Of a stretch of DNA of 64,000 nucleotides, positions 48,005 through 58,992 are shown piece by piece. The position numbers were made by a program, and so were the translations under genes. Under the pieces are notes generated by a model that worked only from the letters and a program-made list of their open reading frames with translations, searched no databases and was not told where the DNA came from. This DNA is from Amyelois transitella. Taxonomy: Eukaryota > Arthropoda > Insecta > Lepidoptera > Pyralidae. The stretch is from assembly GCF_032362555.1 (NCBI RefSeq), contig NC_083527.1, positions 3,906,001 through 3,970,000 on the forward strand, written 5' to 3'. Every line of letters starts with the position of its first letter. The stretch's first letter is position 1.

Positions 48005-51000
48005 ATGAGTGATTATCCTTCTATGGCTACGCTTCAAAATAATAGCCAGACGCCGGGATATGCGAATGCTCTACAACGTGCGAGATTGGTGAGTCTTTCT
48101 GCATAATCAGCGATTCTGCACCATTTTTATTATTTCGCTAAATTGTAATATCGCACCTTTTTTCTATGATTCTGTTTGCTTAGGATGAGCTTGTGTCAAT
48201 TTTTTTAGCTTGTCATTACAAAACGTCTTTCACTTTTACTTAACCTACATAAAATCGTTTCTTTTAATCTCGTGTCTATTGATACAAAAAGACCCATCTT
48301 TCACAGACAGTCTAAATTTTGGCCTACATTAGATTTATAAGATTATTTTTCTGTAGGTTGCAGCTAAACTTGTAGGTGGTAAACGACCATTGGAAGAAGG
48401 AGGATCTGCTGACCCCATACCGAAAAAAACGGCTTCTATTGACAATTCTTATCAACAACAACAACAGCAACAAGCAATGAGGTTTGTTCTTTTATTTACT
48501 TCAGCTTCAATTTTAAATAGATGTACATTCTTTGTTCCCGCCTTTTTATGACCATGCATGTAACAGCCAAGTCAAAATTAATATGTGGGATATCACACTG
48601 CAATACATTGGAAAATTCTTTAGTCAACTTTTTATTATATAATGTCATTTAGGGTGGGATACTACATAAGAAAGAACAACTGATCATTATAACTGAACTG
48701 TATTCTTGGGGCTTTCTATTTCCTTTAGGGGCTCTTTCTTGCAGGTACTTGTGGCCATTGTGCAGACTGGATCAGTTTTAAATTGCATCCTCTCAATCTT
48801 ATATTACTGCATTTGTGGTCCAAGGTGGTGCTAGGACATCACCTTAAAGTATCCATTGATTTTATGATTTGTACAAGGAGAGAAGCACCTCTAATTCAAT
48901 TGGACACCTAAACAGTAAACAATAGTTAATTATGCTTGGTGTTTCTCTTTGAATATCAAATGAGGTGATCTGTAGATGAACAAAAAATAACCAACCTGAG
49001 CTGCTAGCTCAGTTCAGCAAACTGAATTGGCAATGGGCAGGTCACATTATTCGAAGACTTAATTGCTGCTGGGGCCAAATTCTCAAGTGGACACTGCAAA
49101 TAGACTGACCACCTGATCAAGACAACAAGTCATTCCCAATCCTATTAAGTCGATTACTATAAGTTTTAAGAAACTGTTAATAATGAGGTTTGTTTTGTAG
49201 CGGAGCAGCAGCAGCGAGTGCAGCGGCGGCCGCGGCGGCTGCGGCGGCGGCGCGCATCGCCGGGAACAACGCGCAGCCCCCCGCGCCGCCGCCGGGCCCG
49301 CCCGGGATGCCCGACCAGACACTCAATGACTTTATCAGGGTGCCCGACAAAATGGTTGGACTTAGTAAGTTTAAGAGTCTCTTTTTCACTTTATGTAAAA
49401 GTGATTTAGGAAACTTAAAATATAACAATTTATGAAGTTATTAATTGATAATCACCTTGTAAAGTTATCAATTCATAACTTTTCAAAACCAGTGTACATA
49501 AATGTGTTACATTGACTTAATTCAATATGTTTAGTTAAACTATTCTGAATGCAACTAAATTTCTCCATACCTTATGCAGGTTGCTATTGGGTTGTAGAGT
49601 CTCATCATAGTGCGACGTTTATTACAGCCTCCAACACTTTGAGTAAAATGACACAGTTTTAAAAAAATATTTGTCAGTACCATCATTAAATTAGTATTCT
49701 ATAACACAAAGAAGAGAAGTTAAACCTACTTCGTTTTAACTTAATGTTCAATAAAATTCTTGATTTTTGCCTAAATGGTTATATTAAATGTTCAAAATTA
49801 AACAAAATAATAATTTTCACAGTAATAGGACGCGGTGGAGAACAAATAACCCGCTTACAAGCAGAGTCTGGTTGCAAGATACAAATGGCACCGGACTCCG
49901 GCGGCCAACCGGACAGAGTCTGCACGCTCACCGGCTCCAGGGAGGCAATACAAAGAGCCAAGTGAGTAAAGAAATGCATTATCTGAATGAATTTAGATCT
50001 GTTATTTTGCAGGAAGTATCACTGAATTTTGTCTGAATGAACTGGAAAAAACAATGCTGAGTACCTTTTACAGAAGGTAAAATTTCTCCAAAAGGCACTC
50101 AGCATTGTTTTCTTCACCAGACTAGTAAAACACCATAATATTTATCGCCCAGGGAACTAGTGAATCAGATAGTGAACCACCGTGGCCGGGAGAACGCGTC
50201 AGGTCAGTTTGAGCCGCAGGGCGGCGGTGGCGGGGGCGGGGGCAGCATGCCGCCCATGCCCCGCGGCGGAGGAGGAGGGGGAGGCGGACTCGCCACTACG
50301 GTAAGTAATACTCTGGTTTGTCTCTTCTCATGTGCTCAAGGGTCAGTTCCCTCAATTTTTCATGACATTGTGTCTAGAAAATCTATTATTTTTTTATATA
50401 TTCTGTTGTGTTTTGAAGTGGTTGCCTGATAGAGATTGCATAATTTGATAAGGCTGCCTTTTACACACATTATATTAGCTAAAGTATAGGATAATTTTTT
50501 ATGTTATGATTTTTGTGCATTATAGAGTATTTATTCTATTTATTGAAATTTTATTGGCTGTCATTCTTGCACTTTGTCATCAAGAGATAAAAAAAATATG
50601 TACATACATACATACATATAGACACGTCTATATCCCTTACGGGGTAGACAGAGCCAATAGTCCCGAAAAGACTGAATGGCCACGTTCAGCTGGATGCACG
50701 TTAATGATGGAATTGAGATCCAAATAGTGACAGGTTGCTAGCCCATCGCCTAAAAAAAAAGGATCGCAATTTTATAAGCCTATCCCTTAGTCGCCTTTTA
50801 CGACATCCATGGGAAAGAGATGGAGTGGTCCTATTCTTTTTTGTATTGGTGCCGGGAACCACACGGTACAAAAAATATGTTGTTTTCCAAATTTTGGTAA
50901 TAATAACTGTAACTGGTGAAATGACTGAATTCATTTATTTGTTTACATAACGGCGTTTTTTCACCTGTCTTTACTTCTTTTTAATTCTCTACTCGTCTTT

Positions 51001-54000
51001 TCTTTCAAGCTAATAATAAATGCTAATTGTGAGATGGCTAAGTGGTGTTTAACGTTTGAGGTTTAATACTGAAGAAAATAAGCCATAGACATGTCAATTA
51101 AATAAAAATAAACAAGACATTCTGTCAATATATCGTCATTCCCATTGCCATTGTCAATTATTAATAACATAAATATATTGATGCAGGAAGAGATTATGTT
51201 GCCCGGTCCCAAAGTGGGTCTTATTATCGGCAAGAACGGCAAGACGATCAAGCAGCTCCAAGAGCAGTCCGGAGCTAAGATGGTGGTTATACAGGACGGG
51301 CCTAACACGGAATATGTGAGTACATTTTTGGAGATTTCTTCATCTGCCATATTAAGTGAAAATGTATCTTTTACTTGCTCCTCCTTTTACAAGAAGGAAA
51401 TGAATACTATTGCTTTTAAAAAAAAATTAAATGTTGTTTGATCCATTAGTAAATTTGGTAAAAATGTGTGAAAGCATACAGCTTCCATCATTTCACTTAA
51501 TTATACAAAGTGATATTAAAAGTTGAGGGAATACATTTTGACAGCACTATTTCTCTACCTACTTATTATACATGCTAAAAGCAAAGCTTTGACTTCCTTG
51601 TTATGGAGATGAATATTTTAGAAAAATTCTGGTTCAAAAAGCCAGTTTAATCTGGCTGAAAGTCCTTCATAAATGTGTCATTGGACCTTCGATGCCTGAT
51701 AACAAAAAAAAAACAATAAAAAAAATTAATTATTCCAACAGGAAAAGCCTCTCCGCATATCTGGCGACCCCTCCAAAGTGGAGCACGCGAAACAACTAGT
51801 ATTTGAGCTGCTCTCGGACAAGGACATGCAAGGCGGGCCGCCGCGGCAGTACGACGACGCGTACTCGCCGCAGGACGGCAACGGCCTCGCCAACTCTACA
51901 GAGGTAGAGGGGATGGAAGTAAATCAACAGCTTTGGCGTTCACCGTGTAATGGAGCTGGGGATTTTGGGGTTATAGGTTTCGTTTTTTGTGTGAAGCTGT
52001 TTTTGTGAAGATGTTGGATGTTTTCTTGATTGAAATTTATGCTGGTATTTCCAATGACTTGATAGATTTGTTCGAGAGAATTATACGTCGTGTCGTTTGT
52101 GGCAGTCAGTCCAATATCAAAAACAAACTTTGGTTTTGGCTCTATTTCAGACATTCACATACTCTTCGCTTACAATCTGGTTTGGTTTTTTTATTTAAAA
52201 AATATATATAATAATCAGCTCCTTTATATGGTGAACCACACAAATGCTTTAACTTACTAATAGTTCTAAGACCAAGCACTTAATTTTGCTCAGTATTGAA
52301 TATGGTGCAAGGATCTAACAAATTTGATACGAAAAAACTAACAATGAATCCGATAATAAATTGCATTTTTAACTCCTATTGCATCTCATGTGATATATGC
52401 ATGACCTTTTCTCATCATATGGTTATGGGGAATAATAATTGTCAGTTTACACCAATTCCAACTTGCCTGACTAGTAGTATTTTTAGTTGTAGGCATTTGA
52501 TTATATTTCATTATCTAATCACCCTTGATTGTTATCAGGTGCTAGTGCCAAAGATTGCAGTAGGTGTGGTAATCGGCCGCGGTGGTGATATGATTAAGAA
52601 GATTCAGGCGGAGACTGGGTGCAGGGTTCAATTCCACCAGGAAAGGGATGATGGGCCGGGAGACAAGAGGTAAGTTAAAAGAATCCTCTTTTGTCTGTGT
52701 CATACAGATGGCAAATAAATTAATAAATATCCCTTAGAGCCATGATGTCACTAACTTTCATCCGCGGTTTCGCCCGCGTTTAAAGTAGCCTATGTTTTTA
52801 GCAAGGAGCAAGAATAATTTCTTTGGTTTTGCCTCTTTTAGACTAAAATACAATAAAAATTATATATGTTTCAAGTAAGAAAACTTATGATCTCCCACTA
52901 TAAAAACAATATATTTGTAGGTGTTACTTACAAGGAAAGCCACATCAAGTTGAACAGGCGCGACAGATGATCGAGGACCTTATTTCTAGTGTAAATGTAA
53001 GTATTATTTAATAAATGTATTCTGATGTATGTGTACTGCCTAATACTCATTCTTAGATTCATCTGCCGACAATAAGCTGTAGACATGGGGGGGAAATAAT
53101 ACAGTAGAATCCCGATTATCCGAATCAATTAAAACCAGTGGTAATTTACAATTTTTTCTCTTGTAGAACTCCACATCATTCAGTTATTCGAGTTATATTT
53201 TTCATAACACTGTTTTCCTTTATGCTTTACATGATGTAAACTAGTTTTTTAATTTAAGCAACTGTCCTGGTTTCCACCCGACATTGGTACTTTGTCTTTA
53301 AGTTGCCTTCTATTTTAACTAAAGCTATTCTTATTATTGAAATAAACATATTATATTTCTCCTACAGAGAAGAGAACAAGAAGTGAGAGGCGGAAGCGGC
53401 AGAGGAAGAGGCGGTTCCAGCCAGAGGAACGGAGACCGCGGGGATTACCAGCAGTGGCAGGACAACCAGGAGATCCGGGTCACCTTCACCGTCTCCAACC
53501 TCAAGTGCGGCCTCATCATAGGCAGAGGTCAGAAACAAATTTGATCACAATTGGGAACTTTTTTGTACTAAACGCCTTTGTCTTTTCAACAATCTCCTAC
53601 AACATTTATAGAAAGATATGTGTTATTCTAGTCTGCCTGAAACCCCGGAGGAAAAATTATTTGGGAAATCATTCTAAAATAGATTTGCACATACACATAA
53701 TCACGTCTATATCCCTTGCGGGGTAGACAGAGCCAACAGTCTTGAAAAGACTGACTGATTGGCTACAGTGACATGTTGCTAGCCCATCGCCAAAAGAAGA
53801 ATCCCAAGTTTATAAGCCTAGGATAAAATAAAAATAGATTTGTATGAGAGAAAACTCATTACTTCACATTCACACATTCCTTCACAACAAAGATTATAAA
53901 TTAACCCATAGGTTGAGATTGATTGAGGATTTAATTTAACCCATGATTTAATAATTTTATCTTTTAAGGTGGCGAAGTAATAAAACAGATTAATGCTCAA

Positions 54001-57000
54001 ACGGGCGCGCACTGTGAAGTGGACCGCCGGGCCACGGGTTCAGATAGGAACAACCGCACTTTCTACATCCGAGGGCACCCCGAGGCAGTTGAGAATTGCA
54101 AGCGGCTCATCATGGAGAAAGTCAACATGGTATGTCTTAATGATTTCCTAAACTTAGATGAAGTTCACTGGTCATCTTTGCATGTTCTAATTAGAGATTA
54201 ATCACATGTTTGTATGTTAAAAAGCCATAAAAATTGTATCTATAGTATTTAGTTTGTAAAGTAGAGATGGTGATGATCTTTACCTTATTTTTATGTCACA
54301 CTTGGAGTCTGGTTCGGTTTTAAGTCAAGACAAAAAAGTTGTAATGGTGTTGTGTACTTCACTTCAGTATATGTAATTGTGTATTTAAAAATTTATACAA
54401 ATAAAAAGTAGCATATGGAGTGAGTATAAGGTTTTGAGTTCAATATTTTTCAGTAATATATGCAATATGTGCCGTGTGGTCCTGGCACTAAAGAATAGGA
54501 CCACTCCATCTCTTTTCCTTGGATGTCGTAAAAGGCGACTAAAGGATATGCTAATAAACTTGAGATTCTTGTAGGCGATAGGCTAACAACCTGTCACAAT
54601 TTGAATCTCAATTTAATTATTAAGCCGTGGCCTTTCTGTCTACCAAGGGATATAGACGTGACAATATGTATGTTTGTATGTACATATATGATGCAAGATG
54701 TAAAAATAAATTTCCTTTATTCTCTCATAGCCGATAAACTTCGTGTCCGAGGGCGGGCCGGGGAACGGCGCGGCGGGCGGCGGCGCGGGCGGCGGCGACT
54801 TCTACGGCGGCGGCTCGCAGCCGCCCGCCTGGGGCTACAACCCGCACTGGCTGCAGCCCAACCAGCAGCCGCAGGTATCACGTGTACACTCAACTGCACA
54901 TCAACCTTCCTATAACTAAACTCACTGCAAATTCGCCTCTATTACCGCGTCGAGTTCCAAGCAGGATGTTTTTACGGTGAGGAAAAACATCAACCAAGGA
55001 GGCAACTGGGTCAATTGAGCAACCATGATAAATCTAACAAGGGTTAGGTTACCCTGCAAAGGTTGCGAAGGTCAGCGAGAATTGCTTCGTGTAAAAACCT
55101 GACTCACCCAATCCAGGATCCATGGTCCCGATTCGATCCTGACTTATGCACTAGGTTTTGCATTCATGAGAATTTTCAGAAAAAATAAAATATGAAAATT
55201 TTATCTATTTCTTTGTAAAATTTTCTTTTGTGATCTACCTTCTTTTCTGCTTCTGAATCCTGGTTCATTTTCTTTTGGGTCCTGGCTTTAGTCCAAGTTA
55301 CATTCACAATTCTCTTGAAAGAAGCCCGGGGTGCGCCTTGAACCATGATCCTAATAGCTTTTACAAGAATTGTTGTTACAAGAATATTCATACTTTTGAC
55401 AATAGGGAAATTCTATAAAACAATTTTGTCTCCAGCAACAAATGCCGATCAACCCTTCAACTGGACAACCGGACTACTCCCAGCAATGGATAGACTACTA
55501 CCGGTCAATGGGATGCGTGCAAGAGGCGGAGGCCATCGAGCAGCAAGCGAAGCAACAACGTCAACAACAACAACAGGGTGAGTTTATAGTGTTGTTGTAA
55601 CAACAATGGATAGACTACTACCGGTCAATGGGATGCGTGCAAGAGAGGAGGCCATCGAGCAGCAAGCAAAGCAACAACGACTAAAACAAGGGTGTATTGA
55701 TTTTTTTTCTTTTAAATTTATATTGTTGTTGTAAAATGTGAAGTTGGGCGGCGCTCAGCAATGGAAAGATCCAGTAATCAGCTAACACGTAAAGAATGTA
55801 AAGTATGAACGGTAAATTGTTTGCTGTGATCCAAAATGCAGATCAATTTTTCATTGGTTAACCAGTCTGTCTGATCACAACAATGAAGAAACAGCCATTG
55901 AATGATTTAATTTAATTTATCGCATGGAGTGTTTAAGAGTCAAAAAACAGGTTTATAAACGTATTTAGCTTACAAGTTCAAGGGAAAACAAAGTTCAAGC
56001 GGTCGCGATTCACGAAACTTGATATGTCATTGTGCCGTAATCTATTGTCTCTTCTATTTTCTTGTTTCTGCGAACTGGTCGAAAGAGAGATGACGAAATA
56101 TATTATTTAATAAAGAGGTTGACCAGTTTAGTTCATATAATGTTCAATGATGCATTCTATTCATGGTACATTTTTTATTGTTTTATAGTCAGCAAAGAAC
56201 CGGAAAGTCCTCACGGTGAGTGTTCAGTAAAATACACTATGCTGGTACATTTCTACCACCTCTTATTAGTTCCATTGCCCATATTATATATTATACCGAA
56301 ATATATACCGATCAACGAATCAAACCTAATGAAAACTCAAGAATAAAATGATCTTATTACAAGATTATCCTAAAAAAAACTGTATCCTGCTATCTCGCTC
56401 TTAACAGCGGACAATTCAATACGCGGGTTCAAATAGAGCGCTCTTTTAAAATGTTTTATTCTATACAAAAATTTATGCACACAATCCTATATTCAAGTTG
56501 GGGACGTCCAGGAAACTTAAAACGACGACTCCCTGCTTTTCCGTTTCAAAATCTTTGGACATCGTATAAAAACAATGTTCCCTAGTATGGCTGGGAAAAT
56601 CTTCAAACGGTATGGATGGCTGATGTAGAATGGCCTGATCGTGAAATACCGATGTGTCCGGGCATATCACGACCCTACACCAATACAACGATCGGGCGAC
56701 GTCATATGCAAAAATCTTTTGTTTAGTTCCAAATTCAAATGAATACGAAATTTGAATCTCCTCCACATAGTTTCTCATCTGAATTTTGAATATCGAACAG
56801 GCGGTTCGTCAGCGCCGGCGCCCGCCGCGCCCGGCGGCAGTGCGGCCCCGGCGTCCGCTGCAGCGAGCGGCGCCGCGCCCGACTACAGCGCGCAGTGGGC
56901 GGAGTACTACCGCAACATCGGCAAGGTCAAGGAGGCGGAAGCGATCGAGGCGCAGATCAAACTCAAGGTAAAGCCCTGGGAAACTATTAGACATTCGTGT

Positions 57001-57403
57001 CAACTTATTGCAAAGAATGCTTCATACAACATGTATTTTACAGGTTTCATATTGGTAGACACTGCGAAAAAATTATGTACTCATAATAATTACCATTGAT
57101 ATGCCAGGGATGAAGTCGCAATTATATGTATGTACTACCATTAAAAATTACAACTAAATGAATTTCGATCCCGTTTTTTGTTCGAAACAAGTGTTTTGAC
57201 ATAGGATATTCCCTCCGCAGCAACAACAAGCGGCGCAGCCGTCGGGCGGGCCGGCGCCGGGCCCGTCGCCGGGCGCGCCGCCGGGCGCCGCGGCGGGCGC
57301 GGGCGGCAGCTACCCGCAGTACCCGGTGTACCCGGGCGCCGTGTACCCCGGGTACGCGCCCTACCCCTACCCGGCCGCCGCTCAGCCCGACCAGCAGCAG
57401 TGA
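48005..57403 (+). CDS. Psi: P-element somatic inhibitor (PSI), FUBP-family KH-domain splicing factor
   Basis: Fifteen constitutive exons, about 704 aa: 48005-48088, 48357-48481, 49201-49364, 49823-49961, 50153-50300, 51187-51315, 51742-51903, 52539-52669, 52921-52996, 53368-53527, 53969-54129, 54731-54874, 55436-55577, 56801-56967, 57221-57403; optional microexon 56189-56215. PSI is a nuclear RNA-binding protein; in Drosophila it represses P-element splicing through U1 snRNP, and in Bombyx its orthologue acts on doublesex. Four KH domains have intact GxxG loops: IIGRGG (about 124), IIGKNG (about 230), VIGRGG (about 325) and IIGRGG (about 435). Poly-Gln, poly-Ala and poly-Gly linkers surround them. 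The C-terminus has two AB-type motifs, [14 protein letters not shown] and [20 protein letters not shown], the U1-70K-contacting type, then a Pro/Gly/Tyr tail. Exon 7 has a second in-frame donor 15 nt downstream (51918). A donor GTGAGT five bases after the stop implies 3' UTR splicing. Confidence 0.95.
50600..50869 (+). repeat. Repeat family A, near full length
   Basis: Starts TACATACATACATACATATA, passes CGTCTATATCCCTTACGGGG and ends GGGAACCACACGGTAC, in the Psi intron before the KH2 exon. Confidence 0.93.
53690..53822 (+). repeat. Repeat family A, truncated
   Basis: CACGTCTATATCCCTTGCGG to CCCAAGTTTATAAGCCTA, then abrupt loss of the CACACGGCA side. In the Psi intron between the two exons that split the KH4 GRGG loop. 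Confidence 0.9.
54471..54690 (-). repeat. Repeat family A, reverse copy
   Basis: Starts GTGCCGTGTGGTCCTGGCAC and ends GGATATAGACGTGACAATATG with a TATGTTTGTATG tail, about 40 bp before Psi exon 54731. Confidence 0.92.
54950..55140 (+). mobile_element. SINE family C body
   Basis: TTTTTACGGTGAGGAAAAAC, GGCAACTGGGTCAATTGAGC and CCAATCCAGGATCC match the 15028-15330 body; the tRNA-like head is missing. Confidence 0.7.
55601..55690 (+). pseudogene. Tandem, frameshifted copy of Psi exon 13
   Basis: Repeats 55481-55570 (the first AB-motif exon) almost base for base, from CAATGGATAGACTACTACCG to GCAACAACG. One base is lost where the exon has CAAGAGGCGGAGG and the copy CAAGAGAGGAGG, shifting the frame. 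No acceptor precedes it. It sits about 24 bp after the true donor. Confidence 0.88.
56189..56215 (+). other. Psi: 27-nt in-frame microexon of Psi (alternative)
   Basis: Flanked by an acceptor with a T-rich tract (TTTTTTATTGTTTTATAG) and a strong donor (CACG|GTGAGT). Its phase (1 in, 1 out) matches the surrounding junction exactly, so inclusion adds nine residues (VSKEPESPH) between the two AB motifs. It contains an SP site that could be phosphorylated. Confidence 0.7.
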
Positions 57404-58992
57404 GCGGTGAGTCACCTGTTTTATGCTCTACTCTATTTATTTAGGTACTGAAAGTGTTTTTGTTGAAAAATATACATTTTGTACCTAAAGAAATGGAATT
57501 CAATCTGTACGCTTATTGACGACCCCTTTTCGCTGCATGAATAGGGTTTTTATGCCGCGAAATGTATTAGTGTTTACTTCATACATTATTGGGTAAATCA
57601 ATCGTAGATCAAAATACCAATTAATAAGCTAAATTGTAACCAAACCCAAGTCCTTAAACTTTTTCTAAACATGTTATTTTAACATTTTTCAAAAATTGAA
57701 TTTATAACAGAAACATGTTTAACGATGTCTGTGTAATTTACTTAATTGATTGAACTAAAATAAGTAGTCGATTTTGAAAGCGTCATTACCATTCTTGTTT
57801 CTCCTCATACCAGTTTCTTTAAGTAAATGATCTAAAAAATATTTATTCCGATTTGTGAATATACATTGGGTAACGTCAATAAGTGTTCAAATTTTCTTAT
57901 AAAATAAATAGTAGTAACGCGTTAGAACGAGCAGGAATTACCGCCTTTTATATATATATTTGCAACCTTTATACAGCTTGTTACCGTATTTTTATATCGT
58001 GCTTAGAACATTTTATTCACTTTAGGCATAATTATACCTGTTGTTATTATATAGTCTTTGAAATAATGTGTGCATGTCTTTTGATTATTTTTATGGGTAT
58101 TGGTGTATAAGATTATTAATCTTTAATTTCAGGCGTATATATAAAAGCATGTGTTAATTTAAATATTCTTTTTCAGTTTGCATGCCAAAACAGATATGTC
58201 CTGAAAATTATGATTATCATATTTGTAGTTTAGTAGTAACGCTGTGGTATTATGGGTAATGTAGATTATTGTGTGTAAGTGACGAAGTAGCTTATATTAT
58301 ATATTGTGCTTTTATATTTTTGCTTTATTTTAGAGCTATGAAGCTGATGGAGGCTCATCGTATTTTTAAGTAGACAATTTTACTGTATCTGTATATGTAA
58401 GAGCATGGAATTTTATAAATGAAGTCTTTGTTTTTAGCAATAAATCATTAATGTCGTGAACACCTTTTATAGTGACACTGGTCAGTTTAACAAATAAAAA
58501 ATTGTTGTGATGTGAAATAGACCAACAATTTAGAGTCGTCTATTTAAAGATTACAGATCGTTTAGCAAAAAATATCTATTTGGCTACAGTGAAAAATAAA
58601 AAGGTAGTCTCCAAAATAAGTGAGAAATGAAATAAAAGTTGTTCGAGACGACATATAGAGAAAGGTTCTTGCCAACTACAATTTCTAGTAATTAAAAAAA
58701 ATATTCATGAGAGAAACTAACATAGATAACTTAGTTGATAGATTAGCTTCTGTCACTTGTACACAAAATGTCTCATTATCACTTAATGCACGGCCCTTTG
58801 ACACTGCTATACAATGTTTACAGTTGTTTAGTGTATGTAGTGTTGCAGATAGGCCAGTGCCGGGGTTGCCTGCTCACGAGAACGTATTACCAAATAAACG
58901 TACAAAAACTACCATTCCAGAAAAAATACAACTATATCAGCCGCAAATATCTATTTTCCCGTTTTTGCCATGTCTGTTTGTTCTGATTGCAG

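Follow-up and report, generated by a model that had tools for sequence, protein, structure and literature searches.

In flies, microexons whose length is a multiple of three (3n) are favored in coding regions, and most internal microexons, 283 of 411, are spliced alternatively, with donors about as strong as that of the upstream exon, according to passages of PMC8042270. The fly microexons of the eMIC/Srrm234 program are characterized in excerpts of PMC8797185 by a weak 5' splice site, very short introns, a UGC near the 3' splice site, and a CUAAY branch site. The splicing factor PSI has been studied from another side. Portions of PMC6890465 report that its AB domain is needed in flies for contact with the U1 snRNP and that deletion of this domain alters the splicing of learning, memory, and courtship genes. 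A microexon in Psi is not named in the titles or abstract openings among the literature matches listed, and we did not find one in the passages and the one section of PMC8042270 consulted. Here we describe a 27-nt segment of a moth Psi gene that we propose as a plausible, ordinary microexon lying between the two AB motifs.

A candidate 27-nt exon in the moth Psi gene

The stretch of DNA analyzed, 64,000 nt long and called the window here, lies on contig 23 of its source genome (327 Mb, 33 contigs), which was the target of our genome searches. A lepidopteran origin of this genome is supported by its Fibroin_P25 family, a lepidopteran family that was present in 0 of 14 control genomes. The gene of interest was modeled with GT and AG borders at every intron. 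A Pfam search of its product returned KH_1 in four stretches and FUBP_C in two, which is the arrangement by which we recognize Psi, namely, four KH domains and then two AB/FUBP_C motifs. The second AB motif (AB2) also matches 2bn5, a Drosophila PSI fragment of solved structure (31 residues, E 8.4e-10). The identification of the gene as Psi in the initial annotation is borne out by these domains and by the AB2 match. The features that matter for the argument are as follows (a slash marks the splice junction).

48005..57403, plus strand: modeled Psi coding region; 15 exons and 704 aa without the microexon, 713 aa with it
55436..55577, plus strand: Psi exon upstream of the microexon, carrying AB motif 1 (AB1); donor AGG/GTGAGT
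56132..56188, plus strand: AG-free zone spanning the 55 nt that precede the acceptor AG; contains a T-rich tract and a candidate branch site, TTCAT
56189..56215, plus strand: predicted microexon; 27 nt, phase 1/1, peptide VSKEPESPH; acceptor TTTTATAG/, donor /GTGAGT
56801..56967, plus strand: downstream Psi exon with AB2; acceptor the lowest of 14 when scored leave-one-out

Two further observations concern the gene model. Immediately after the stop codon TGA (57401-57403), the sequence GCG/GTGAGT at window positions 57404-57412 could serve as the donor of an intron in the 3' UTR. In addition, three modeled exons close with weak donors, at 51903 (GTAGAG), 53527 (GTCAGA), and 54874 (GTATCA), all of which score below 0 leave-one-out. 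Because of these weak donors, other Psi exons may be alternatively spliced.

The predicted microexon is preceded by TAG and followed by GTGAGT, contains no stop in frame, and is flanked by introns of 611 and 585 nt. Since the preceding exon stops in phase 1, the phase in which the exon at 56801 resumes, VSKEPESPH would be inserted cleanly. These nine residues would sit between QQQQQ and GGSS, as residues 589-597 of the 713-aa Psi, downstream of the best FUBP_C match, which ends at residue 581. They would bring an SP site and the sole P-x-S/T-P of Psi, beside three other S/T-P sites; P-x-S/T-P is a possible proline-directed kinase site. The linker from GGSS to AB2 has zero charged residues, and the insert contributes K, E, E, and H. 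With AG and GT borders, a length of no more than 30 nt, and an open, phase-compatible frame, the segment has the sequence features of a microexon, a class that spans 3-30 nt. As a reading of the sequence, the initial annotation is confirmed: its coordinates, the 27-nt length, the 1/1 phase, and the open frame are all correct, and the nine-residue insert with an SP site between the two AB motifs holds for the predicted exon.

The 27 nt were found at a single place in the genome at up to three mismatches. A dispersed repeat is present in the microexon's intron, at window positions 56316-56444 (query positions 617-745), with 70-84% identity to at least 39 other genome places; repeat counts are lower bounds, as 40 of 104 candidates were scored. 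This repeat lies downstream of the 27 nt and does not overlap them, and a repeat origin of the segment was rejected.

A genome search with the protein encoded by the AB1 exon gave three matches, namely, the exon itself, AB2, and a local tandem copy. None of the three is a processed copy that could be used as transcript evidence, and a retrocopy was accordingly discarded as a source of such evidence among these matches. Within the microexon's intron, window positions 55601-55734 are a partial tandem duplicate of the 3' part of the AB1 exon and the start of the intron, with identities of 98% over 45 nt, 91% over 43 nt, and 94% over 18 nt. A one-base deletion breaks its frame, and the exon's first 45 nt and its acceptor are absent. 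This segment, which is clear of the 27 nt, looks like a decayed exon duplication.

Viral and bacterial-archaeal contigs, collections that are not meant for moths, yielded 11 and 49 pattern matches, respectively, and none was confirmed as a relative. A degenerate pattern of the microexon had 0 matches in the viral and 0 in the bacterial/archaeal contigs, a result without bearing on moths.

Splice-site quality and chance expectation

Splice sites were scored with models trained on the 14 donors and 14 acceptors of Psi, with generic pseudocounts, and the Psi sites used for comparison were scored leave-one-out. The microexon donor, ACG/GTGAGT, scores 6.22, and just one donor among the 14 others in Psi is higher. 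The acceptor scores 2.98, a value exceeded by 9 of 14 other Psi acceptors; its pyrimidine count (13 of 16 positions) is greater than that of 13 of the 14. The donor is therefore near the best of the gene and the acceptor is ordinary. Strong splice sites on both sides had been claimed for the segment, and this description stands for the donor and fails for the acceptor.

The A of the TTCAT branch-site candidate is 26 nt upstream of the microexon. An AG-free zone as long as the 55 nt found here precedes 3 of 14 real Psi acceptors; for the remaining AGs of the Psi introns, the figure is 15 of 341. Use of a rival CAG acceptor 4 nt further downstream (score 0.76) would start the exon at 56193, shorten it to 23 nt, and shift the reading frame. 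The GC content of the microexon (14 of 27 nt) is equaled in 10% of 813 intron 27-mers, so that the segment is weakly exon-like in composition, which is too weak a criterion to rely on.

The main rival to a real microexon is a pseudo-exon, in which an intronic T-rich TAG would be paired by chance with a GTGAGT 27 nt further on and would never, or hardly ever, be spliced. We regard this explanation as a serious one, with a probability not far below even. To estimate how often such a pair arises, we counted acceptor-donor pairs separated by 3-51 nt in which neither score was below that of the microexon. By this measure the microexon is unique in the Psi introns, which total 7,284 nt, and likewise in the whole window, both strands included. 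In a genome sample made up of 20 ten-kilobase stretches (400,000 nt over the two strands), there were three pairs as good, one of them in frame and open; this sample is small, and its stretches were placed by hand at round coordinates and may include real exons. From these counts, 0.055 pairs of any phase and 0.018 in frame and open are expected in the Psi introns, and 0.009 and 0.003, respectively, in the microexon's own intron. These low expectations, together with the long AG-free zone, argue against a pseudo-exon. The same three pairs per 400,000 nt imply roughly one chance pair in the window when both strands are counted (0.3 in frame and open), and this rate, like the ordinary acceptor, fits a pseudo-exon.

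A simpler rule (G/GTRAGT together with 13 or more pyrimidines in 16 positions) found four pairs in the genome sample, one in frame and open. Among 200 shuffles of the Psi introns, a pair appeared in 3% and an in-frame open pair in 1%, and 4 Mb of shuffled genome contained 16 pairs, 5 of which were in frame and open. A laxer test used the sum of the two scores, with floors of 0 and 2. It found 16 pairs in the genome sample, which again favors a pseudo-exon, and corresponds to 0.29 expected in the Psi introns. Seven pairs on the plus strand of the window reach the microexon's sum: four use a real Psi splice site, two lie elsewhere (26 and 29 nt), and one is the microexon. By summed score, the microexon is not striking.

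Taken together, the points in favor of a real exon are that it is the sole pair of this quality in the Psi introns, its clean phase and open frame, the long AG-free zone, the single genome match of the 27 nt, and the agreement with fly microexons in 3n length and, in the full model, in donor strength. Those against it are the chance pair expected per window, the summed-score expectation, the ordinary acceptor, the alternative acceptor at 56193, the weakly exon-like GC content, and the dependence of the donor agreement on the model. When a prior of the fly order, which takes in a general figure for the number of fly introns, is set against the chance rate for the microexon's intron, the odds are roughly even, and the AG-free zone lifts them slightly. 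We consider the microexon a reasonable prediction and lean toward 56189-56215 being a genuine spliced microexon of moth Psi. Otherwise, it would be the kind of chance pseudo-exon of which a window should hold about one.

Constitutive, alternative, or sex-regulated use

If the microexon is real, it may be a constitutive exon, so that the 713-residue Psi would be the normal protein, or an alternative cassette, included in some transcripts and skipped in others. Leave-one-out scores point toward constitutive use, as the microexon donor (6.22) exceeds the upstream donor at 55577 (4.59) and the 56801 acceptor, at -0.93, is the weakest in the gene; moreover, 128 of 411 internal fly microexons are constitutive in the passages of PMC8042270. 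In the full model, however, the two donors tie at 6.22, and the 56801 acceptor, now with itself in the model, reaches 4.08 and exceeds the microexon acceptor. The fly majority of alternative microexons cited above (283 of 411; PMC8042270, in part) also runs against constitutive use. Because the upstream donor falls when it is left out of the model, the tie between the donors is model-dependent and a soft sign. We judge a constitutive microexon to be unlikely. An alternative cassette is the form of use that we tentatively favor for the predicted microexon, at somewhat less than an even chance.

Inclusion would add VSKEPESPH to the linker between the AB motifs of Psi. The insert would place charged residues beside an uncharged stretch, along with the sole P-x-S/T-P, and could modulate the contact of the AB pair with U1-70K. 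If the microexon is real, Psi would have two forms differing exactly between its U1-contacting motifs, and the insert would be a concrete candidate for modulating a factor that is present in both sexes and on which male dsx splicing depends in the silkworm.

The initial annotation had raised the possibility of regulation by tissue or sex, with consequences for sex determination. Its premise, that a Psi orthologue influences dsx splicing in the silkworm, agrees with the parts of PMC5289617 and PMC6539025 that we cite. A microexon regulated by sex, as a special form of the alternative cassette that alters the role of Psi in dsx splicing, would fit this premise. It would also fit the change in courtship-gene splicing after deletion of the AB domain in flies (PMC6890465, in part) and the sex-specific isoforms that whitefly (Bemisia) PSI is said to have in a citing sentence of PMC13411575. 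However, nothing that we saw at the microexon, including on a reading of its flanks for sex-specific cis-elements, points to sex. Excerpts of the review PMC13087858 describe BmPsi expression as non-sex-specific, and passages of PMC6539025 map the contact of Psi with dsx RNA to the KH motifs. PSI is likewise present in both sexes according to part of a review (PMC7926724). The suggested regulation by tissue or sex thus finds no support here, and we consider a sex-regulated microexon very improbable. We give a similarly small chance to a broader scheme, in which the microexon would toggle AB-AB spacing and phosphorylation as a tissue- or sex-dependent switch of U1 recruitment acting on dsx or courtship-gene splicing. 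A role of the predicted microexon in sex determination is speculation.

Comparison with known microexons and with PSI

A neural microexon of the eMIC/Srrm234 program would be another special form of the alternative cassette. The predicted exon resembles the microexons described in the excerpts of PMC8797185 in its short 3n length and long AG-free zone. It differs from them in its strong 5' splice site, in its flanking introns, which at 611 and 585 nt are not very short, and in having no nearby UGC or CUAAY: the nearest TGC is 36-38 nt upstream, and CTAAY is absent from the 60 nt upstream. The predicted microexon thus lacks these features of the program in flies (PMC8797185, in part), and membership in it is highly doubtful.

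The closer likeness is to the 3n coding microexons of Drosophila in the passages of PMC8042270. Like them, the moth exon has a length of 27 nt or similar, is a multiple of three, and lies between two coding exons, with a donor comparable to that of the upstream exon in the full model. The species and the gene are different, and the moth exon is a prediction from sequence. With respect to the protein, moth Psi is similar to Drosophila PSI, whose AB motifs bind U1-70K (2bn5, 2bn6), as seen in the AB2 match. It may differ from Drosophila PSI in the predicted, optional nine-residue insert between these motifs.
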